Under the pieces are notes generated by a model that ran no database searches, was not told the origin of the DNA, and saw only the letters and a list, made by a program, of their open reading frames with translations. From the NCBI RefSeq assembly GCF_002286735.1, contig NZ_NRTA01000014.1, positions 1 through 64,000 on the forward strand: a stretch of 64,000 bases of DNA, read 5' to 3'. Numbering within the stretch: position 1 is the stretch's first letter; each line of letters opens with the position of its first letter. Position numbers and translations under genes: made by a program. Source of the stretch: Leptolyngbya sp. BC1307 (GTDB lineage: Bacteria > Cyanobacteriota > Cyanobacteriia > Phormidesmidales > Phormidesmidaceae). Of this stretch, positions 5,744-62,234 are shown in pieces.

Positions 5744-5819
5744 AAAAACAACGGGAGATTATGCTTTTAAAGGTAGCAGACGGCGATTTCTTTAGCTGTT
5801 TGCAAACGCAGTGATCCGG

Positions 5820-7265
5820 CTACTGAATCGGCAGACTGAGGGTAAAAGCGGTTTGCCCTTTGGGCGTGCTATTCAGGCGCAGCTCACCCTTGTGAGCGCG
5901 GGCAATTTCTCGGGCAAGGCTGAGCCCCAGACCAAATCCTTCTCGCTTACGGTTGCGAGAGAGATCGCCCCGATAAAAGCGATCAAACAGGCGATCGCGC
6001 TCCTCTACCGGAATATCTCTGGAGGCATTCGCTACGGTCACCTGCACGCTGTTTCCCTGCTGTCGCCCGACAATGGACAGCCATCGCATGGCCTTGCCCT
6101 CCGGTAAGTTGTACTTAATGGCGTTGTCGATCAGGTTTTGTAAGACCTGAGTGAGCAGATCGCGATCGCCCCGTATTTTCAGCTCTCCATCCAGCTTGAC
6201 TTCTACCGGCAGGGCCGGGTCTAGCAGCTCAATATCTTCTATCAGCAGCGTTAAAATCTCCTCAACATCCACTATCTCTCGCCGCATACTAATCTGCCCT
6301 GCATCGGCTAAAGAGAGCAGCAACAGCTTACGCACAATCACGCTCAGCCTGGCCACTTCGTCTAGCAGCTGGCCCAAACTTTGCTGCAAGGCCGAGCCGG
6401 GTTCAGCTTGCTGCATGGCTAGCTCTAGCTCGCCGCGCAAAATTGCCAGCGGCGTTTTGAGTTCGTGAGCCGCATCGCCGCTAAAGCGAGAAGACTGCCT
6501 GAAGCTGCGCTCCAATCGCGTCAGCATTTGGTTAAAGACTTCAATGAGTTCAACAAATTCGACATCGGCACTGCCCACGGGCACCTGTTGATCGAGCCCG
6601 GTCGCCGTCACCTGCTGAATGACGTTAGTGAGCTTACGCACTGGTCTGAGCGCACTGCCCGACAGCACCCAGGCCCCTACTGCAATCATCATTAACGTGC
6701 TAGGAATCGCTACCAAAAAGATGTTGCGAATCACCGCCATGTCTTGATCGATGGTTTGCAGACTGACGGCGATCGCTGCCTTCCCCGCTTCCGAGTTAAT
6801 TATCCCGATGCGCCAGCTGCCTGTGGCTGTGCTGCGAGTCGAGACTTGGGTGGGGCTGCTACTTGGTGTGGGGCTCGCGGGCTCTGGACTTTTTTCCTCT
6901 TTGTCAGCCAGTTCGCTGCCTACGGCTGTTAGCATCAGGTCAATCTCTAGTGCGACATTGCCGAGCCGAGCTTCACTGACCGAATAGTGCAGCGTTCTGC
7001 CTTTCTCATCTACTGCCAATAGGGTGATCGGAGTGTCAATTTGGGTTTCTAGTTCGCGCGGCAGCTCTTGGGTAAAATTTTGCCACCAGAGGGGCGATCG
7101 CCGCGCTGCCATCCGCTGCAGTTGACTATCGAGCTTGGCATCTAGGCTGTTTACCTTCGCCACATAAATCAGCCGCCAGGCCACCAGCCCAAAGCCCACC
7201 AGCGCCCCACCTGCCAGTGCCACCGCCATCAGCGCAATCCGTAAGCGAAAAGACCTCAGCTTCAC
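5820..7265 (-). CDS. Membrane sensor histidine kinase
   Basis: Starting at GTG 7265, which is preceded by a good Shine-Dalgarno (AGAGGAAAG), the protein has 481 residues. A first membrane helix lies at about residues 10-32. A periplasmic domain follows with a Ser/Pro-rich stretch. The second helix (FLVAIPSTLMMIAVGAWVL) leads into a HAMP linker. The H-box is SGDAAHELKTPLAI, the N-box LQNLIDNAIKYN, and the G-boxes RFYRGDLSRN and GFGLGLSLA. It is a classical HPK1-type kinase. The cognate regulator is probably the OmpR-family gene at 8266-8946, from which it is separated by a Uma2 gene. The stimulus is unknown. The frame stays open upstream of 7265 but would then overlap the Uma2 gene. Confidence 0.88.
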   Translation of the reverse strand: MKLRSFRLRIALMAVALAGGALVGFGLVAWRLIYVAKVNSLDAKLDSQLQRMAARRSPLWWQNFTQELPRELETQIDTPITLLAVDEKGRTLHYSVSEARLGNVALEIDLMLTAVGSELADKEEKSPEPASPTPSSSPTQVSTRSTATGSWRIGIINSEAGKAAIAVSLQTIDQDMAVIRNIFLVAIPSTLMMIAVGAWVLSGSALRPVRKLTNVIQQVTATGLDQQVPVGSADVEFVELIEVFNQMLTRLERSFRQSSRFSGDAAHELKTPLAILRGELELAMQQAEPGSALQQSLGQLLDEVARLSVIVRKLLLLSLADAGQISMRREIVDVEEILTLLIEDIELLDPALPVEVKLDGELKIRGDRDLLTQVLQNLIDNAIKYNLPEGKAMRWLSIVGRQQGNSVQVTVANASRDIPVEERDRLFDRFYRGDLSRNRKREGFGLGLSLAREIARAHKGELRLNSTPKGQTAFTLSLPIQ

Positions 7266-11814: not shown

Positions 11815-14814
11815 ATGCCCTACGATCAGACCGCTCCGTCTCCTGAGGTTTTTACGTCAACCGCTCAAACTGTAGCCAGTACTGTGGTTGATGCCGTCAG
11901 CAGCATCTCGGCAACAGCAGATCGCTCGATCTGGACAGATCACCTTCCTGCGGATCGCTTCGTCCAGCGGCACCTCGGCCCGACTGCGTCCGATATTGAT
12001 CAAATGCTGGCTGTCCTCGGCTTCGATAGCGTGGATGATTTGATTGCCGCTGCTGTGCCCGCTGGCATTCGGCTGAGCGAGCCCCTAAAGCTCCCCGCAG
12101 GGCTGACTGAGAGCGAGGCGCTAAACAAGATCGCTGATATCGCAGCGCTCAACCAGGTCTATCGCAGCTACATTGGTCTGGGGTACCACGGCTGCGTGAC
12201 GCCGCCCGTCATCCAGCGCAACATTTTAGAAAACCCCGGCTGGTATACCCAATACACGCCCTATCAGCCAGAAATCTCTCAGGGACGGCTCGAAGCGCTG
12301 CTCAACTATCAGACGATGGTCAGCGACTTGACCGGGTTGGAAATTGCCAATGCTTCTTTGCTAGATGAAGGGACAGCGGCAGCAGAGGCCATGAGCATGA
12401 GCTATGGCCTGTGTAAAGACAAGAATGCCAAAGCGGCTAAGCGTTACTGGGTGTCTGCGAGTTGTCATCCACAGACGATTGAGGTGATTAAGACGCGATC
12501 GCACCCGCTAAATATAGAAGTTGTCATCGGTAACCATAGAGAGCCCAAAGCGCTAGCCGACGGCCCCTTCTTCGGTGCCCTGCTGCAATACCCTGCCACT
12601 GACGGCGCGATCTACGACTATACAGACTTCATTGAGCAAGCTCACGAGACAGGCGCGACCGTGACCGTCGCCGCTGACCTGCTCAGCCTTACCCTGCTCA
12701 AGCCCCCCGGCGAATTTGGCGCAGATATTGCAGTCGGCAACACGCAGCGATTTGGTGTGCCGCTAGGCTATGGCGGGCCTCACGCCGCCTACTTTGCCAC
12801 CAAGCAAGCCTACGCACGCAAACTGCCGGGCCGTCTGGTGGGCGTTTCTAAAGACGCCAAAGGCGCACCCGCATTGAGACTAGCCTTGCAAACCCGCGAA
12901 CAGCATATTCGTCGCGACTCAGCCACCAGCAATATCTGTACGGCTCAAGTGCTGCTTGCCATTATCGCCGGTACTTACGCGGTCTACCACGGCCCCGCCG
13001 GGCTTAGAGGAATTGCCACACGCACTCATCAGCTCACCAACGCGCTGGCAGACGGCTTGCGGCGGCTGGGCTACCCGCTGGGCACCGAACCCGTATTCGA
13101 TACGCTCACAGTCGTCACTGGCGAGCAAACTGCCGATATTATCGCCCGCGCCGCCGAGCGTCAGGTCAATCTGCGCCTTGATCCGGTTCGGTCAGGTCAA
13201 CCCCAGACTTTGGGCGTCTCCTTGGATGAAACGACTGGGCCAGCGCAGTTGGCTGAACTGCTGGCAATTTTTGCGGGTGACAAATCTGCGCCTGAGCTGG
13301 ATTCTCTGCGAAGAGAGCCGCTGCCTGAGCCACTGCGACGCACTTCGCCCTACCTGACTAACTCCGTATTCAACCGGTATCACAGCGAAACTGAACTGCT
13401 GCGCTATCTGTACAGTCTGCAAAGCAAAGATCTCTCACTAGCCAATGCGATGATTCCCCTGGGATCTTGCACCATGAAGCTCAATGCCACCGCTGAAATG
13501 GTGCCGATTACCTGGCCAGCGTTTGGACAGATTCATCCCTTCGCCCCGCTCTCCCAGACCCAAGGCTATCAGGTTCTCTTCACCCAGCTAGAAGCGCAGC
13601 TAGCAGAAATTACGGGCTTTGCAGGCATTTCGCTTCAGCCTAATGCGGGCTCACAGGGAGAATATGCAGGGCTGTTGGTCATTCGTCAGTATCATGCGTC
13701 TCGGGGAGAGGGCGATCGCAATATCTGCCTGATTCCCCAATCTGCCCACGGCACCAATCCGGCCAGCGCAGTCATGGCCGGGATGACAGTAGTCGCCGTC
13801 AAATGCGATGACGACGGCAATATTGATGTCGAAGATCTGGCCGCTAAAGCAGAAAAACACCAGGACAGTCTGGCTGCGCTGATGGTGACCTACCCCTCTA
13901 CCCACGGCGTGTTTGAAGAGAGTATCAAAAGCGTTTGCAAGATTATTCACAGCCACGGCGGTCAGGTGTATATGGATGGCGCGAATATGAACGCCCAGGT
14001 GGGCCTGTGTAGTCCGGGCGATATTGGCGCAGATGTCTGTCATCTCAATCTCCATAAGACTTTTTGCATTCCTCACGGTGGCGGCGGCCCCGGCGTTGGC
14101 CCGATTGGCGTTGCCGCTCACTTAGTCCGGTTTTTGCCCGGTCACAACTTGATTCCGACGGGCGGCGAGGAAGCTATTGGTGCCGTTGCTGCCGCGCCCT
14201 GGGGCAGTGCCAGCATCTTGCCAATTTCCTGGATGTACATTCAGATGATGGGAGCCGAAGGACTCAAGCAGGCCAGCGAGATTGCCATTCTCAGCGCCAA
14301 CTACATCGCTAAGCGGCTGGAAGGCCATTACGATATTTTGTACAAAGGGGCCAGCGGGCTGGTCGCCCACGAGTGCATTGTCGATTTGCGAGGCTTCAAA
14401 AAAACCGCTCAGGTGAATGTCGATGATATTGCCAAGCGTCTGATTGACTACGGCTTTCACCCGCCCACCATGTCCTGGCCAGTAGCCGGTACCATCATGG
14501 TTGAGCCGACTGAGAGCGAAGCTTTGGGCGAACTAGACAGGTTTTGCGATGCCATGATCGCCATTCGCGCTGAGATTCAACAGATTGAGTCTGGCGAGAT
14601 TGCCTCAGAAGAAAGTCCTCTGCACTACGCCCCTCACACCACCGCCGATCTCGTAGATGATTGGCAGCGGTCTTACTCACGCGCGCAGGCGGTCTTTCCG
14701 ACGCAGTGGACTCGCGATCGCAAATTCTGGCCTGCCGTCAACCGCATCGATCAGGCGTTTGGCGATCGCAACCTAGTCTGCACCTGTCCCTCAATGGACG
14801 AATACGCCGACTAA
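11815..14814 (+). CDS. gcvP: Glycine dehydrogenase (decarboxylating), P-protein
   Basis: From ATG 11815 the protein has 999 residues, the normal length for a homodimeric P-protein. The frame is open further upstream but would overlap gcvH. After a leader of about 45 residues comes [18 protein letters not shown]. The PLP-binding Lys is residue 748 in [18 protein letters not shown], followed by the glycine-rich loop VGPIGVA. It decarboxylates glycine and loads the aminomethyl group onto GcvH. An even-numbered pair of duplicated halves is visible, as in the family. It is the last gene of the gcv run and is followed directly by a pyrimidine tract and a peptidase gene. Confidence 0.97.
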
Positions 14815-14843
14815 TTCCCCCTTCCCCTTTCCCCCTTTCCCCT
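14815..14843 (+). repeat. Polypyrimidine tract abutting a start codon
   Basis: A pure C/T run made of repeated TTCCCC/TTTCCCC units fills the whole gcvP-peptidase junction and touches the peptidase ATG, leaving no room for a purine-rich Shine-Dalgarno. Similar C/T tracts occur at 37981-38034 (as purines on the + strand) and 49009-49060. Confidence 0.6.
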
Positions 14844-17225
14844 ATGACTCTTCCCGCTCAGGACACCTGGCAAACCCCCCCTGAGCCCATCGCCTCGATG
14901 CTCAACGCCCCACAGCTCCCCACCGTTGCCTTTTCCCCCAAGGCTGAGTGGATTGTTGAACTGGGCCAGGCAGAGCTGCCGCCGATAGAAGAATTGGCCG
15001 CGCCAAAAGTGGCGATCGCCGGTTTCCAAATCAACCCAAAAACCTGGGGGCCAGCCAAACCAAACTACTACCGTAGCCTGGCCATTCGCCGCCAAGAGGA
15101 AAAAACCGCCCGCCCTATCCAGCTCCCCCCTGATGCGCGCATTCGCAATTTAAGCTGGTCGCGGTGCGGCCAGTATCTTTGCTTTACGCATACAAAAATA
15201 GAGAATGAGGACAGCGGCATCAGTCTGTGGGTGCTCGACCTTAAAACAGCACAAGCCCGCGCCCTGACCGGCCTCATTCTCAATGCCACCTGTGGCAGCG
15301 TCGTCCGCTGGCTACCCGACAACAGCCTGATCTGCAAAGTCCGCATAGAGGTAGGCCCACCACCCAATCCGCCTAGCTTACCGGTCGGGCCGATTATAGA
15401 AGAAAATCTAGGCCGCACTGCGCCTGCCCGCACCTATACCAACCTGCTGACCAATCCTCATGACGAAAATCTGCTGGAGTACTATCTGACTTCGCAGCTC
15501 GTCCATCTCACCCTGACTGGCGAGCAAACCCCGATCACAGAACCTGACCTGTTCAAAAGCTTCTCGCCTTCTCCCGACGGTCAGTGGTTAATGGCAACCA
15601 CCACCCACCGCCCCTTCTCCTATCAGGTACCGCTTTCTCGCTTTCCTGCCTGCACCAAGATTTTTAATTTGCAGGGCAAGCCTGTCTATACCGTGGCCGA
15701 CTTGCCCCTGGCCGAAGAGATCTCCATCAATTTCGATTCTGTTCGAGACGGACGGCGAGCAACTGGCTGGCGTGCCGACAAACCTGCCACCCTGTATTGG
15801 ATAGAAGCCTTAGACGGCGGCGATGCTCGGCAGGAAAGTGAGTATCGTGACAGTGTTTATACCCTCTCTGCTCCCTTCACCGATGCGCCCGCGCTGCTGT
15901 GGAAATCAACCTTACGATTTAACAGTCTGGTCTGGGGCAATGGCACAACAGCGCTAGCCTACGAAGCCTTTTACAGCAGCCGTCAGGTTCGCACCTGGCG
16001 ACTCGCGCCCGACGACCGGCAAGCGACCCCTCTTTTATTATCAGAGCGCAACTTTCAAGATGCCTATAGCAATCCCGGTGAGCCTGTAACGACACCCGGC
16101 GAATATGGTTGGCAAACGCTGCTGCTCTCAGATCAAGGCGATATTTACTTTAACGGTCGTGGTGCTTCTGCAGAAGGGGTTCGTCCTTTCTTAGACAGGT
16201 TCAATCTGGCCAGCGGTGAAACAGAAAAACTGTGGCGATCGCCCCCCAACACCTTCTCTAGAGTGAGAAAAGTCCTCGACCCAGCCGCCAACCAGTTCAT
16301 CATCCGTCAGGAGAGTAAAACCGCCCCTGGCAACTACTGGCTGCACGACCGTGACCAGTCTCAGACAGTTGCCCTGACTCATTTCCAAGATCCGCTGCCC
16401 TGGTACGAAGACATTCACAAAGAGATCGTGCGCTACCGCCGCACCGATGGCTTAGAGCTTTCCGCCACTCTCTACCTACCGCCTGGTTATGACCTGGAGC
16501 GCGACGGCCCGCTGCCCACTCTTTTGTGGGTTTACCCAGAAGAACACAAAAGCCGTCAGACTGCCAGCCAGGTCACTCGCTCAGAAAATACCTTTGGTAG
16601 ACCCAGCCGAGCTTCAGTGATGTTTTTACTCACGCAAGGCTATGCGCTGCTCTCTGGGCCGACGATGCCGATTGTCGGCGAGGGCGAGATCGAACCTAAT
16701 GACACCTATTTAGAACAGCTGATCGACAGTGCCACCGCTGCTGTCGATTATTTAGTTGAGCGAGGCGTCAGTGAGCCTGGTCGCTTGGCCATTGGCGGAC
16801 ATTCCTACGGCGCGTTTACCACCGCAAATCTGCTAGCTCATACCAATTTGTTTGCGGCGGGTATTGCTCGCAGCGGCGCTTACAACCGCAGTCTGACCCC
16901 TTTCGGCTTCCAAGGCGAACAGCGTCACTTTTGGGATGCTACCGATACCTACAGCCAGATGTCTCCCTTTTTCGCTGCCGACCAAATCAATCAGCCGCTG
17001 CTGCTCATCCACGGCGCTGCCGATAACAATGCGGGCACCTACCCTATTCAAACCGAGCGACTGTACGAAGCGATGAAAGGACTCGGCGGCACGGCGCGCT
17101 GGGTGAGCTTGCCCTACGAAGAACACGGCTACCGCTCTCGCGAAGCGGTCGGTCACGTTCTTTGGGAAATGGTGCGCTGGCTAGATACCTATCTCAAAAG
17201 AGAAGGTGAACCCATAGATTCATAA
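14844..17225 (+). CDS. S9-family serine peptidase, glutamyl-endopeptidase-like
   Basis: Starting at ATG 14844 (MTLPAQDTWQTPPEPIASML) the protein has 793 residues. The N-terminal two-thirds is a WD/propeller-like domain that gates access. The C-terminal alpha/beta-hydrolase domain carries nucleophile Ser654 in GGHSYGAF, the Asp in IHGAADNNAGTYP and the His in PYEEHGYRSRE, in canonical S9 order. The domain order and the ALDGGDARQESEYRDSVY segment recall the plastid glutamyl peptidase (CGEP, S9D) group. It has no signal peptide, so it probably acts in the cytosol. It starts 29 bases after gcvP, across a pyrimidine tract, and may be read through from the gcv transcript. Confidence 0.88.
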   Translation: MTLPAQDTWQTPPEPIASMLNAPQLPTVAFSPKAEWIVELGQAELPPIEELAAPKVAIAGFQINPKTWGPAKPNYYRSLAIRRQEEKTARPIQLPPDARIRNLSWSRCGQYLCFTHTKIENEDSGISLWVLDLKTAQARALTGLILNATCGSVVRWLPDNSLICKVRIEVGPPPNPPSLPVGPIIEENLGRTAPARTYTNLLTNPHDENLLEYYLTSQLVHLTLTGEQTPITEPDLFKSFSPSPDGQWLMATTTHRPFSYQVPLSRFPACTKIFNLQGKPVYTVADLPLAEEISINFDSVRDGRRATGWRADKPATLYWIEALDGGDARQESEYRDSVYTLSAPFTDAPALLWKSTLRFNSLVWGNGTTALAYEAFYSSRQVRTWRLAPDDRQATPLLLSERNFQDAYSNPGEPVTTPGEYGWQTLLLSDQGDIYFNGRGASAEGVRPFLDRFNLASGETEKLWRSPPNTFSRVRKVLDPAANQFIIRQESKTAPGNYWLHDRDQSQTVALTHFQDPLPWYEDIHKEIVRYRRTDGLELSATLYLPPGYDLERDGPLPTLLWVYPEEHKSRQTASQVTRSENTFGRPSRASVMFLLTQGYALLSGPTMPIVGEGEIEPNDTYLEQLIDSATAAVDYLVERGVSEPGRLAIGGHSYGAFTTANLLAHTNLFAAGIARSGAYNRSLTPFGFQGEQRHFWDATDTYSQMSPFFAADQINQPLLLIHGAADNNAGTYPIQTERLYEAMKGLGGTARWVSLPYEEHGYRSREAVGHVLWEMVRWLDTYLKREGEPIDS

Positions 17226-56847: not shown

Positions 56848-57078
56848 CTCTTATTATTCGCTAGTTGAGTTTCTTCTCGCTCTAAACAGCGATCGCCCCT
56901 TCAAACTGAAGTTCTGCACGATGAAGCCAAACATTGCATTTATGCAAATTGAGTTTTGTATTGAGTGATGGAAGAAAGCAGAGGGTGAAAGGAGCGATCG
57001 CGCCGCTGAATGGAAGAGTTGGGCGGGCGATCGCAGCTAACACCCTCGCAAACTAAAGTTCACTGAACACGAGCCTCC

Positions 57079-57312
57079 CTAAGCCGCCCTCACTCGCTTA
57101 GTCAATATCGCCATTACCTCATTGGGCCTGCCCGTCGGCAGCAATTGGCTCCAGTCATTTGGCTCAGCATAGTTCAGATGATGCAATTGCTGAATGGTTA
57201 CCTGCACCGCGCTAGGGCTACCAAACAGCATATGGCGCACAGGTTCAGTCGGTGAGCTGCCATCAGCAGAAGCAGTGGACGCAAAAGCGCCCGCAGTAGA
57301 AGGGATAAACAT
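57079..57312 (-). CDS. Small conserved cyanobacterial protein
   Basis: A 77-residue frame. From an internal Met at 57231 it reads MLFGSPSAVQVTIQQLHHLN, then YAEPNDWSQLLPTGRPNEVM and AILTKRV, a pattern I recall from many small cyanobacterial hypothetical proteins. The N-terminal 27 residues before that Met are low-complexity (Ala/Ser/Thr), so the shorter start may be the true one. No function is known to me. It marks the left edge of the AT-rich accessory region. Confidence 0.6.
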   Translation of the reverse strand: MFIPSTAGAFASTASADGSSPTEPVRHMLFGSPSAVQVTIQQLHHLNYAEPNDWSQLLPTGRPNEVMAILTKRVRAA

Positions 57313-58250
57313 GAGATCTGGTCTCCGCGAATAGGATTAGCGAGAAAACCAGAACTCAAAAGCTTAGCCACCCCACAAAAGCTAGTGCAAATCAGGGTGG
57401 CTAAGGTAAAGTGACCTCAGCTTCCAGGCTGCGCGAATCAGTTTGGGAGTTAGCCGTCGGCGTGGTGCTTGTAACACCCGTCGATGGCGCTAAGTCGATT
57501 GAGTTCTGACAGAGAGAGACTGTGATAGGCATCACAACCAATAGCTACAGAGCATAAGCCGATTTCCAGCTTTCGTCAAGCGGTAGAAAAGCGAATTATT
57601 TTTCAGTTGTGAAAGACAAAATCGCGAATGTAATAGACGTATGCCTTCTCAGCCGACAGGATAAAGTATTTGAGCCTGATTGCTTCTCGACCCCGACCTA
57701 GCAGACGAGGTGATTTAGATGGCGGCATACTTAATGCATGTAGTAAGTCTGAAATATAGGTACTTATGCAGCAGTTACACCTAATAAGCACCTCATGCCC
57801 CTACTCAACATCGCGAAAATGGTAGATAACGCCCGTTTCTAAGGACTCATACCACAGAAACATCAGATAACTTCTGTAAAGGGGGCTTTATCCCGCAAAA
57901 ATGTCAAGCAAGTTGAAAAATAGGTTGTTATGCAGCAGATCTGACGTTGAATACATAGTTATGCCGCCGGGCGGTTAGTGAGGGAGCAACTGAAAAGTTA
58001 TCTGTAGTCTTAAAGACCCGATTGACTAACAAAAGTTTGATGGGAACTTCTGAAAGCCGCTTTCTACAAAGATTTCAGCCCAAATAGGCGACTACTCCTG
58101 CAATTAAGCTGAAAGCATTGATGTAAAAGGAATTCAGGATTTCTAGTGCATGTTTTGTCAGTCAATCAGCTTAAAGACTTAAAATTAAAGACTTAAAAGC
58201 TCGTCTGAGTTTTCTAAGCTACCAAGAACCACAGCTAAAACCAGAAAAAT
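57313..58250. other. AT-rich gene-free stretch at the left edge of the island
   Basis: I can support no gene in these 938 bases. Short frames exist but lack family signals. The 11-mer TTATGCAGCAG occurs at about 57768 and 57938. CCGCCGGGCGG (57964-57974) can form a small hairpin between two GTTA sequences, but no attC site meeting the R/L box spacing could be built here. A 14-bp tandem duplication lies at 58171-58198. It may be decayed cassette DNA. Confidence 0.45.
58171..58198. repeat. 14-bp perfect tandem duplication
   Basis: TTAAAGACTTAAAA occurs twice head to tail, 52 bases upstream of the membrane-protein cassette gene. Confidence 0.9.
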
Positions 58251-58700
58251 ATGTCGGAGAAAAGCAATAAATTATCGCAAGAAGAAGCAAAAGACTTATA
58301 TCTCAAAGTCTGGGAGAAGGAGCAAAGTTATATTCAGATTAGATGGACAGTAGTAACATTCTTTATTAGCATTAGCTTTGCAATCCTTGGATTTTCCTTC
58401 AACATAAGCAATCCCAAGTTGCCTATAATCACTCCTCAATTAGTTGGTTGTGTTATTTACTGGTTTGCGTTTTAAACTCATCTTGTCCTATATAACTTGA
58501 CAGAATATTACAGAGAATATCTATTAAAAATGGAAAAAGAAGGTTTGGTCAAATATGATGTAAGGACAGAAGCTAACAGATTTTTTGCTGAACGAAGGAA
58601 GGGATTAGGACGATCACATCCGACAACATTATTAGCTTATTTTGGTGTTGGCTATACTGTAGCTATTGCATTGATTTTTATTAAGCTGTATGTAATCTAA
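58251..58700 (+). pseudogene. Membrane-protein cassette gene broken by an ochre codon
   Basis: Two frames in the same phase are separated only by TAA at 58473-58475. The first 74 codons give a hydrophilic helix (SQEEAKDLYLKVWEKEQSYI) and two membrane helices (VVTFFISISFAILGFSF and PQLVGCVIYWFAF). The second part continues THLVLYNLTEYYREYLLKME, then a cytoplasmic loop and a final helix (LLAYFGVGYTVAIALIFIKL). Together they read as one three- or four-helix protein of about 149 residues. The two-helix pair plus soluble loop recalls membrane proteins of phage-defence operons, but this is inference. The gene is followed by an attC-like site and so looks like a cassette of its own. Confidence 0.65.
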
Positions 58701-58753
58701 TGCCTTATGTTTGCAGGTTGAGCTAGCAATAGTTAAGTCGTTGTAGAGGTGCG

Positions 58754-58839
58754 GCATAACAACCCTGGTGTAGCGGATTGACCGAAACCACCTGTGATGT
58801 TGCAAAGTCTCTGGCAATCGCTGACCAGGAACGTTAGAA
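58754..58839 (+). other. attC-like integron recombination site
   Basis: R'' GCATAAC (58754-58760) pairs through TAAC with GTTA in R' GTTAGAA (58833-58839). After a 3-base spacer on each side, L'' CCTGGTGTAGCGGATTG (58764-58780) pairs with L' CAATCGCTGACCAGG (58815-58829). This gives 14 base pairs, with an unpaired G at 58776 and a small bulge at 58770-58771 on one arm only. That asymmetric extrahelical base pattern, box order and spacing is the hallmark of attC. The cleavage point would be in ACGTTAG, and the next gene starts 33 bases later. Confidence 0.8.
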
Positions 58840-58865
58840 CACTAAACACAGAATTAGAGTAATAA

Positions 58866-59621
58866 ATGAGTTTTGTATTTAAGATATTTGAACATTGCTA
58901 CAATTCGATTAGAGAAGGAAAGCTTATTGAAAAAGAGAACTCTAGAGATAAGGAATACCATTTCCAGGACTGGTTCAAGTCTCGATTAGAAGAATTAAAA
59001 AGCAACTTTGATGAACCATCAAGAAACAGCTACCCTGACTTTCGTATGGTCGGTGATGCATTAGGCTTCGAGCTGAAGGGGTTACAATATCCTGGAAGAA
59101 TCACTAATTACGATTCGAACAGTCAGGTTCCAACAGGATTGCATAATGGTAGAACGGTATTTTATGTGTTTGGTAGGTATCCGAAAGAGCCATTAAACCC
59201 GAAGAAATACCCTGTTCACGATCTCATTATATGTCACGGTAATTTTATTAACTCTGATCACGAATATATCCACAAAAACAAAAGCGTGAAAGGGTTTGGT
59301 AGTTATGGAGATATAATGATTCGTGACAGAAAAATGTATGTTGCACCAACACCATATGCATTGACTGAAGGTACTGAGAATCAAATCACACTAGTTGTAC
59401 CTGTTGGCCTAGTTGCTCCAGCGGGTTTTAGGGCTATTGGTGAATTGGTGCGAGTTGAAACAGGAAAATTGATAGTAGGTTATGAGTTTGATCTTATCGC
59501 AAACGAAATAAAGGCCAAGAAAATAGATAATCCAAACTCAGGTCTAGAGCATAGGTTCGTAGCTTACCGTGTGTCGTCTGACAAAGGGCCAAGAGTGTCA
59601 CTCAAGAGTGAAAACGAATAA
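58866..59621 (+). CDS. Predicted restriction endonuclease, PD-(D/E)XK type
   Basis: A 251-residue protein with AT-rich codon use. The nuclease core is NSYPDFRMVGDALGFELKGL: Asp58, Glu69 and Lys71 form the D-x10-E-x-K triad of the PD-(D/E)XK fold, with a preceding helix (KEYHFQDWFKSRLEELK). Then come SQVPTGLHNGRTVFYVFGRY and HDLIICHGNFINSDHEYI. It overlaps the methylase gene by one base (TAATG), so the two are translationally coupled, as restriction and modification partners often are. I do not recognise a specific subtype or recognition sequence. It sits in an attC-bounded cassette. Confidence 0.7.
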   Translation: MSFVFKIFEHCYNSIREGKLIEKENSRDKEYHFQDWFKSRLEELKSNFDEPSRNSYPDFRMVGDALGFELKGLQYPGRITNYDSNSQVPTGLHNGRTVFYVFGRYPKEPLNPKKYPVHDLIICHGNFINSDHEYIHKNKSVKGFGSYGDIMIRDRKMYVAPTPYALTEGTENQITLVVPVGLVAPAGFRAIGELVRVETGKLIVGYEFDLIANEIKAKKIDNPNSGLEHRFVAYRVSSDKGPRVSLKSENE

Positions 59622-61732
59622 TGAAGGCTATTGAGCGTGATTTTCCCTTCGAAGAAATCGATCCCATTGCTGAAATAGAAAGCTATAGGAAAGAAATAAA
59701 CAGACCGATCTATCATATCCACAAATGGTGGGCTAAGCGCCTTGGTAGTGTTTTTCGGTCAATTGTTTCAGGGGCATTAGCTGAAGGGCAGTGGAAAGAT
59801 TTTTATGAAAACCAAAACAATGCGGGAAAGATTGTACTTGATCCGTTTATGGGATCAGGAACGACACTCGGTGAAGCCGCAAAACTTGGTGCAAGTATAA
59901 TCGGCTGCGATGTCAATCCCGTTAGTACCTTTCTTGTCACTCAAGCGATTACAAAAGCTGGGGTGAACGAGCTTGAATCTGAATTCAAGCTAATCGAAAA
60001 GGATGTAAAAGAAGAAATAGTTTCTTACTACACAACGAAAGTTCCTAATGCTACTAAACCCACTCAAGCCTTATATTATTTTTGGGTAAAAACTGTCACT
60101 ACCCCAGCCGGTGAATTAGTACCGTTGTTTTCAAGCTACGTTTTCAGCAAAAACGCATATCCCAGCAAAAAGCCGGATTCACAAATTTGGTGCCCTTCCT
60201 GTGAATCTATATTTGTTGAAAAATATAACAGTACCAATGTTGAATGCCCATATTGCTCACATATGTTTAACCCCCAGAATGGATCAGCGAAAGGAACAAA
60301 GGTCACTGACAGCGAAGGCAACTCATACAAGATTAAGGAATTAATTACTAATTCAAAGGGTGCTCCCAGCCATAAACTTTATGCCATTATGGCTTTGGAT
60401 GAATCTGGTGAGAAGGTCTACATTAAACCATCAAAGTTTGATTTTGATATTTTGAAAGAAGCCCGTAACCACTTGAAAGACCTTGATGGCGTCCTTCCTT
60501 TGCCGACAATGGAAGTTCGACCTGGTTATAATACAAACCAAGCACGAGGTTACAATTATAAATTATGGCGTGACTTTTTCAATGACAGACAGCTTCTTTG
60601 CCTGGGTTTACTTTTACAGCGAATACTTAAAATCGAAAACAAAGTAATTCGTGATCATTTCATTTGTTTGTTTAGTGGCACCCTCGAATTCAATAACCTT
60701 TTTTGCAGCTTTAAAGGTGAGGGAACTGGTGCTGTAAGGCATATGTTTTCTAATCACATATTGAAGCCAGAAAGGACACCGCTTGAAAATACTGTATGGG
60801 GAGCTACCGGAAAAAGCAGTGGATCATTTTCAACACTCTTTAAAAGTCGCTTGATTAAAGCAAAAATATATCTTGATGAGCCATTTGAAATTTTGATTGA
60901 TTACAGTGGCACTAAACAGTCTTCAAAGAAAGTTATTTGCAGCGACCCAATTAGGCTAAATGTTTCTCAATCTTGGGAGGAATTTGCCAAGTCGCAACAA
61001 GGCGCGCTTATACTTAATGGCGACAGTTCGTCACTTCCTATTCCTGACTCCACTGTTGATGCAGTTGTAACTGACCCTCCATATTTTGATTTTGTTCATT
61101 ACAGCGAATTAAGCGACTTCTTCTATGCTTGGCTAACCAATGCACTTGGGGGGGAGTATAAATATTTAAACAGACAGGATTCTTCCCACAAGAACGAAGT
61201 TCAGGATCGCGACAATGAAAGTTTTACAAAGAAAATTTGCAGTATTTTCCGAGAATGCAATCGAGTACTCAAGCAAGATGGTCTTTTATGTTTCAGTTAT
61301 CATCATTCTACTATCGATGGCTGGATGGCTATTTATAATTCTGTCACTGAAGCGGGGTTTGATATTGTGGCTTCGCACCCGGTCAAGGCAGAAATGTCTG
61401 TGGCAAGTCCAAAAAGCGCTGCAAAAGAACCCATAAATCTGGATGCAATATTGGTATGTAAAAAGGAAAATAAACCACCAGTTATTAAAAACGGGAATAT
61501 TGAAGTCAAAAAAAGAGTTAGTAACTACGTTAAGCGTTTTGAGGCAATTGGACGTACGCTCAGTTCAGGAGACAAGTTTGTCATAATCTGTTCTCAAGCG
61601 TTGTCGGTAGCATCTACTCTCAGAATGGATAAAGTTGACGCTGAAAAATTTATCAGAGAGTCCGTGCAGGAGTGTTCTGACAAAGCGCTGCACTCGGACA
61701 ATTTTTCCGCTACGCTTCAAAATTGCCGGTGA
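59621..61732 (+). CDS. Adenine-specific DNA methylase with Zn ribbon (DUF1156/COG1743-like)
   Basis: A 703-residue methylase. The N-terminus has the DUF1156-type block NRPIYHIHKWWAKRLGSVFR. SAM-binding motif I is VLDPFMGSGTTLGEA (residues 73-87), followed by IIGCDVNPVS. A zinc ribbon of two CPxC knuckles (CPSC 191-194, CPYC 209-212) sits in the middle. Catalytic motif IV is TDPPYFDFVHYSELSDFFYA (DPPY at 485-488). The order I, insert, IV resembles the alpha class. DPPY implies N6-adenine or N4-cytosine methylation. It should protect host DNA against the coupled nuclease. The stop codon lies inside the downstream attC-like site. Confidence 0.85.
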   Translation: MKAIERDFPFEEIDPIAEIESYRKEINRPIYHIHKWWAKRLGSVFRSIVSGALAEGQWKDFYENQNNAGKIVLDPFMGSGTTLGEAAKLGASIIGCDVNPVSTFLVTQAITKAGVNELESEFKLIEKDVKEEIVSYYTTKVPNATKPTQALYYFWVKTVTTPAGELVPLFSSYVFSKNAYPSKKPDSQIWCPSCESIFVEKYNSTNVECPYCSHMFNPQNGSAKGTKVTDSEGNSYKIKELITNSKGAPSHKLYAIMALDESGEKVYIKPSKFDFDILKEARNHLKDLDGVLPLPTMEVRPGYNTNQARGYNYKLWRDFFNDRQLLCLGLLLQRILKIENKVIRDHFICLFSGTLEFNNLFCSFKGEGTGAVRHMFSNHILKPERTPLENTVWGATGKSSGSFSTLFKSRLIKAKIYLDEPFEILIDYSGTKQSSKKVICSDPIRLNVSQSWEEFAKSQQGALILNGDSSSLPIPDSTVDAVVTDPPYFDFVHYSELSDFFYAWLTNALGGEYKYLNRQDSSHKNEVQDRDNESFTKKICSIFRECNRVLKQDGLLCFSYHHSTIDGWMAIYNSVTEAGFDIVASHPVKAEMSVASPKSAAKEPINLDAILVCKKENKPPVIKNGNIEVKKRVSNYVKRFEAIGRTLSSGDKFVIICSQALSVASTLRMDKVDAEKFIRESVQECSDKALHSDNFSATLQNCR

Positions 61733-61746
61733 GCGCGGCGTTAGGT
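61675..61746 (+). other. attC-like integron recombination site, second
   Basis: R'' TCTGAC (61676-61681) faces R' GTTAGGT (61740-61746, an exact GTTRRRY). L'' (61685-61705, starting GCGCTGCACTCGG) pairs with L' (61719-61736, AAAATTGCCGGTGAGCGC) over 20 bases. Three unpaired bases sit on one arm only: G61690, T61694 and A61698. The phrase GCCGGTGAGCGCGGCGTTAG is very close to the 3' half of many known attC sites. It has the same orientation as the first site and overlaps the end of the methylase gene, as cassette attC sites often do. Confidence 0.9.
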
Positions 61747-61897
61747 GGATAAGCATCACTGACTAAGTAAACTGAAAACTCAGTACAGAATTGTTTGTCA
61801 GAAAGGTCTGCTGTTCAGCCCTCAATTGGGGCCGATGGTCAGAGACTTGCATAGCGGTATGAAATTCACTACCTTTAACTTACTGAGCGAGAAACCT

Positions 61898-62155
61898 ATG
61901 AAGATGGATGAGTTAGAAATGGAAGATGATCTACGAACAGAGTATGATTTGAAGAGTCTGCGAGTCAGGAAGTTAGGCTCTGGAAGAAAAAGTTTTGACG
62001 GAGCAACCATACGGCTAGAACCTGATGTTGCAGATATGTTTCCTGATGCTGATGCGGTTAATGAGGCGCTTCGATTCTTGATTAGAATTATGCGAGATAA
62101 CCAGGCGCTTGTACCAGCAGTACAGGCTGACAATTCAAATGCAGCGGACAATTGA
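61898..62155 (+). CDS. Small conserved cyanobacterial protein, antitoxin-like
   Basis: From the internal ATG at 61898 the product has 85 residues: MKMDELEMEDDLRTEYDLKS, then LRVRKLGSGRKSFDGATIRL, EPDVADMFPDADAVNEALRF and LI. The pattern of an acidic start, then RKLG-GRKSF and EPDVA-MFPDADAVNEALR, is common in cyanobacteria as a small protein that often partners a toxin, but no toxin is adjacent here. Function is unknown. It is immediately outside the second attC-like site. The frame is open upstream of the chosen start. Confidence 0.6.
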   Translation: MKMDELEMEDDLRTEYDLKSLRVRKLGSGRKSFDGATIRLEPDVADMFPDADAVNEALRFLIRIMRDNQALVPAVQADNSNAADN

Positions 62156-62206
62156 GACCTCTTGGTGAGATAGCAAAAATTACGAGTGCCGCTGATTTGA
62201 GCCGTC

Positions 62207-62234
62207 TGTCATCAACCACATGTCATCAACCACA
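62207..62234. repeat. 14-bp perfect tandem duplication
   Basis: TGTCATCAACCACA occurs twice head to tail in the short gap after the antitoxin-like gene. Confidence 0.9.

Follow-up and report, generated by a model that had tools for sequence, protein, structure and literature searches.

Two hairpin-forming sites in the genome of the cyanobacterium Leptolyngbya sp. BC1307 bracket a nuclease gene and a methyltransferase gene, raising the question of whether this pair is an integron gene cassette and, if so, what kind of structure holds it and whether it can still move. The window, as the term is used here, is the whole 64-kb stretch of DNA that was analyzed (64,000 nucleotides). An earlier note, made from the sequence of this window, had read the hairpins as recombination sites (attC), the genes between them as one mobile cassette, and the locus as a cluster of attC sites lacking an integron integrase in a cyanobacterium. 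The host is indeed a cyanobacterium, with 12 phycobilisome-domain matches in its assembly; the other readings are taken up below with the evidence that bears on each.

The two sites lie in the same orientation on the forward strand, at the coordinates first proposed: attC 1 at 58754-58839, with R'' GCATAAC and R' GTTAGAA (58833-58839), and attC 2 at 61675-61746, with R'' TTCTGAC and R' GTTAGGT (61740-61746). In the fold of attC 2, the unpaired bases are confined to one arm. A scan of the whole window for the attC layout, on both strands, ranked the two sites first and second. In 20 dinucleotide shuffles of the 64 kb, the layout score of site 1 was reached once and that of site 2 eight times; no significance is therefore claimed from layout, and a covariance model was built. 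Single-strand folding energies of the sites are mildly unusual (z -1.3 to -2.3) and add little, and Rfam gave no attC-like match in or near them. A plain consensus pattern proved useless genome-wide, as the reversed pattern, run as a control, gave more matches than the pattern did.

The covariance model was trained on 28 attC sites from other genomes, most of which adjoin integron integrases (L029, L066-L084), the sources being the host's cyanobacterial order and one Kovacikia plasmid. The common stem of these sites is real, as revealed by covariation: both-sided changes occur in 12 of 13 pairs, 94.5% of cells pair compared with 65% in shuffles, and the covariation of the stem is 0.69 compared with 0.16 when shuffled and at most 0.17 when the partners are slid. 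Scored unfiltered, the window gave three significant matches, all on the forward strand. These are attC 1 (67.3 bits, E 2.4e-13), attC 2 (37.9 bits, E 1.5e-6), and a third, decayed site, attC 3, at 62125-62210 (R'' GGCTGAC, R' GTCTGTC; 47.1 bits, E 1.1e-8), against 11.2 bits (E 2) for the best non-site in the window. The identification of both bracketing sites as attC therefore stands. AttC 1 shares 84% identity with an attC of an intI-bearing array in a genome of the same genus (G057). AttC 2 is a moderate fit to the cyanobacterial model, with GAC replacing AAC in R''; the same model assigns 28-39 bits to known class 1 attC sites, which places attC 2 within the range of real foreign attC sites. 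The GTT of R' is invariant across the 28 model sites and has become GTC in attC 3, which is thus probably dead.

In the standard layout of an integron, the integrase gene (intI) lies on the reverse strand and is followed by attI and then by the cassettes on the forward strand. The attI site adjoins intI (PMC9668308). An intI relic is present in the window on the reverse strand at 57603-57728, contrary to the claim that no integrase is found there. The relic retains the start codon (ATG 57728) and the first 41 codons, with the N-terminus MPPSKSPRLLGRGREAIRLKYFILSAEKAYVYY, and then a stop (57603), the remainder of the gene being deleted; in a tblastn search with the IntI of G057, 57704-57606 (-) matched over 34 residues with 70.6% identity (E 3e-8). 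The attI region follows at 57856-57964 (+), with the core CAGATCTGACGTTGAATACATAGTTATGC and a predicted crossover between G57958 and T57959. The region is conserved upstream of intI, at the same distance, in G057, G020, G015, and G038 and in the host's own contigs C29 and C45. Conservation extends through the stretch CAGATCTGACGCTGAATATATAGTTA as far as GTTA, beyond which the sequences diverge; this is the appearance that attI sites with different first cassettes would be predicted to have. The locus thus has an attI beside intI with cassettes inserted, as an integron does, and a functional intI is missing, since 41 codons are left here and only broken copies were found elsewhere in the genome.

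The sequence downstream of the relic (56888-57602, -) is common to other integron-platform relics of the genome: C27 (L026:9562-10449) matches 56888-57747, and C29 (L027) matches 57078-57581, each with 85% identity. The platform with its flank (window 56888-57747) occurs in several copies, on C27, C29, and C45, which are 81-85% identical, and every intI among them is broken.

Three cassettes lie in a row on the forward strand downstream of attI. Cassette 1, in first position, spans 57959-58833, from the attI crossover to the R' cut of attC 1. Its gene, at 58251-58700 (+), encodes a membrane protein of 149 codons in two ORFs of one frame; the in-frame TAA at 58473-58475 makes it a pseudogene, with a weak 8xMP match (Pfam PF24838, E 0.0011) that falls under the family cut-off. 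Cassette 2 (58834-61740), which harbors the nuclease-methylase pair and attC 2, is discussed below. Cassette 3 (61741-62204) runs from the R' cut of attC 2 to that of attC 3 and contains a gene of ∼85 aa at 61898-62155 (+), with an ATG at 61898 in an ORF open from 61826 and a stop inside attC 3. This gene has no match in Pfam or NCBIfam; a Nostoc plasmid encodes a weak relative (E 5e-6).

Further integron remains are scattered across the host genome. The search for intI and for more attC sites that the earlier note had proposed was successful for attC, on several contigs, and unsuccessful for an intact integrase. At E <0.003, attC sites are present on C44 (four), C80 (two), C29, C45, C11, C98, C69, C59, and C14 (three, those of the window). 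A profile search with TIGR02249 of the assembly (99.99% complete, 222 contigs) returned only broken copies of intI; an integrase gene may be hidden in a gap among the 222 contigs. On C11 (82274-83954), an attC (-) adjoins an intI relic that is 86% identical to the G054 IntI to about residue 208-210 and is then broken, and C45 carries intI fragments. The relics of C27 (L026:10277-10432, -) and C29 (L027:7897-8052, -) join approximately the first 17 residues to residue 286 onward. The two have the same in-frame deletion (∼residues 18-285), each with a 52-codon open frame, and their proteins share 69% identity. This would be explained by a deletion older than the duplication of the platform or by something that keeps the mini-frame open.

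Two side observations concern other arrays. The attC array of C44 (L142:7023-11030) contains, at separate positions, two near-identical short genes (∼90-100 aa, ending in ALGCTCAVCTGGVQRPIF), which looks like the duplication of a single cassette. The Kovacikia minuta plasmid pB (L029, NZ_CP083584.1) carries a cyanobacterial integron at 12806-15942, with five attC matches; a DNA cytosine methyltransferase gene adjoining its intI overlaps a hypothetical gene, perhaps another restriction-modification cassette.

The prevalence of integrases in the host's order bears on whether the array might still be live. A strong intI match was detected in 34 of 65 genomes of the order, compared with 23 of 386 drawn from the whole phylum, and many of the copies in the order contain stops or are truncated. 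An integrase encoded elsewhere in the cell, or one brought in on a plasmid, could still move the cassettes in trans, a reading we consider improbable, though the strongest of the alternatives. Consistent with it, attC 1 is intact and attC 2 has kept its GTT, complete intI is frequent in relatives of the same order (the 34 genomes with a match), and the Kovacikia plasmid has an annotated integron integrase with adjoining attC sites. Against it stand the failure to find an intact intI in so complete an assembly, the GTT lost from attC 3, and the pseudogene in cassette 1. Given that no intact intI was found, the cassettes are probably fixed in place, barring the arrival of an integrase in trans, and the present-day mobility that had been suggested for the pair is unlikely.

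A second alternative is a cluster of attC sites lacking integron-integrases (CALIN), in which the cassettes were inserted away from an integron and never stood beside an integrase of their own. IntegronFinder 2.0 (PMC9024848) defines a CALIN by a minimum of two attC sites where a full-length integrase is lacking; the three sites here are spread over <3.5 kb and no full-length intI is near, so a standard integron finder would probably return this call. What sets the locus apart from a CALIN is that the N-terminal intI relic and attI have been kept upstream in the standard order, with a third attC downstream, and that further copies of the platform, with intI relics of their own, occur on C29, C27, and C45. 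The orphan-cluster reading is thus largely refuted, and we assign it only a very small probability. The relic and attI argue instead for a decayed chromosomal integron, comprising the intI relic, attI, and three cassettes in a row with the probable restriction-modification pair in the second, and we hold this interpretation of the locus with high confidence.

That the second cassette is a single unit is supported by comparison with the closest relative found of the pair, located on a metagenome-assembled contig of an Idiomarina sp., a marine gammaproteobacterium (JAIUMU010000009.1). There the nuclease is 90% identical at the amino acid level and the methylase, which adjoins it, is 76% identical. 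DNA homology between the two contigs is 77% and starts (CGTTAGAA) at 58832, the predicted cut of site 1, to the left of which no upstream base pair can be aligned. On the right, the similarity stops after CG[T/C]TAGG at 61739 (CGTTAGG in the window, 61739-61745), so that the left half of attC 2 is common to both contigs as TTCT[A/G]ACAA, followed by GCACTC[A/G]GACAATT. When alignment scores were compared with shuffles over 80 bases on each side of an edge, z was 15.7 inside and -1.1 outside at the left edge, and 8.1 inside and 0.0 outside at the right. Homology is thus bounded by both predicted cuts, between the G and the TT of each R' as in an integron, which identifies the 2907-bp unit as one gene cassette, in agreement with the original proposal. 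The R' of the Idiomarina copy reads GCTAGGC, one base off GTTAGGC, and this copy therefore looks decayed too.

A related pair is found in an array in Bacterium UASB270 (L149), directly after an attC at 5768-5875 (41 bits) that closes a run of five attC sites. The 3' attC of this pair was missed by the model, and an attC-like remnant at L149:8972-9080 aligns only partly and was not counted. The pair is thus carried by integrons in two or more lineages, and a third has it with edges of attC type. Close relatives of the pair are also located on plasmids (in Acidiphilium and Tabrizicola), and the model detected no attC in most other relatives; both findings would suit a pair that travelled in a defence island or on a plasmid, the hairpins being terminators or chance. 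That reading is refuted by the sharp junctions at both R' sites, the covariance-model scores, and the same family following an attC in the five-site array of UASB270, and it retains next to no credibility.

An empty site at this position, the comparison originally envisaged for related strains, was not found in relatives. In genomes of the same genus, the RluD and hydrolase genes of the left flank and the mannosyltransferase gene of the right flank are present, are not neighbors, and have no attC beside them. Similarly, ∼158 kb of same-genus sequence around the neighboring host genes (L132-L141) gave no covariance-model match. The history of the locus is thus not directly seen.

Within cassette 2, the organization of the genes is as first described. 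A 33-base leader (58833-58865) precedes the gene for a putative restriction nuclease of 251 aa (58866-59621, +), which is coupled through a TAATG overlap (nuclease stop TAA 59619-59621, methyltransferase ATG 59621-59623) to the gene for a DNA methyltransferase of 703 aa (59621-61732, +), whose stop codon at 61730-61732 lies inside attC 2. The methyltransferase matches PF01555 (N6_N4_Mtase, 65.5 bits) and has a CxxC..CxxC ribbon and a DPPY motif, and so carries the catalytic motifs that the methylase of a type II restriction-modification system should have. It scores 120 bits with NF042963, the DUF1156 anti-phage methyltransferase family, well under the cut-off of 1000.

The nuclease, a candidate for the PD-(D/E)XK type, contains the motif PD58-x10-E69-x-K71, in which D58, E69, and K71 are invariant among 13 homologues. 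The protein has no family match in Pfam, NCBIfam, or PADLOC, no solved structure matched by sequence, and no matching phage record. The best match of its predicted structure, a low-confidence model (mean pLDDT 62.7), is EcoRV (1bua; prob 0.99, E 2.6e-3, TM 0.28), followed by HincII. The motifs and this model point to a putative nuclease activity. The nuclease and methylase genes are neighbors in all 11 relatives with both ends on the contig, and the pair is most likely a restriction-modification (R-M) system. At one further locus (L095, G055:C20, 5781-7723, -), the partner of a nuclease relative (52%) is a methyltransferase of the cytosine-C5 rather than the N6/N4 type, and the nuclease family may thus swap methylase partners.

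The decayed integron would have arisen as follows. At the start there would have been an integron platform comprising intI and attI, its first cassettes under Pc-type expression. IntI, working on the bottom strand of the cassette's attC in its folded form, would have inserted cassette 2, with cuts between G and TTAGAA at site 1 and between G and TTAGGT at site 2; the single-stranded hairpin, the strand, and the mechanism are deduced from the junctions and from what is established about integrons. A later large deletion in intI would have left the cassettes in place, after which decay may have reached attC 3 and the cassette 1 gene as the R-M pair stayed open. If the pair is still expressed, the methylase would mark host sites and the nuclease would cut unmarked incoming DNA.

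Several known systems resemble this locus. The sedentary chromosomal integrons of Xanthomonas (PMC12444791) likewise have an intI broken by stops, frameshifts, or deletions and a short frozen array; the present case differs in its cyanobacterial host, its several decayed platforms per genome, and its two-gene R-M cassette. Integrons have been reported earlier in cyanobacteria (PMC2426708, PMC8618304, PMC8352920). The cyanobacterial integrons and attC model of Ghaly et al. 2021 (PMC8352920) concern the same phylum and attC class, whereas the model used here derives from the host's order and one Kovacikia plasmid. According to the review PMC12409362, type II and IV restriction genes have been reported in integrons, and the phage-defence cassettes of Darracq et al., Kieffer et al., and Getz et al. 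2025 include restriction systems as cargo, as here; by comparison, the predicted R-M cassette is 2.9 kb long, has two genes, and belongs to a decayed cyanobacterial array. In the library searched, no paper treats integron integrases together with Leptolyngbya, which says little. As cyanobacterial integrons, defence cassettes, and intI decay have all been published, what is gained here is the example itself and the numbers of the survey.

The example provides base-level evidence that a predicted two-gene R-M system moves as one integron cassette, with its edges mapped in hosts of two phyla. It also draws attention to the host's order as one rich in integrons, in which the loss of intI and the freezing of arrays could be traced within one genus. 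Of greater interest are the cassette shared across phyla and how often intI occurs in the order. A broader proposition, which we regard as evenly balanced, is that Gammaproteobacteria and Cyanobacteria have exchanged the same R-M cassette, pair and attC together, by way of integrons, and that the Bacterium UASB270 lineage has a related one; the host's order would then be a hot spot of integrons and share in a pool of defence cassettes that spans phyla, its platforms multiplying and dying.
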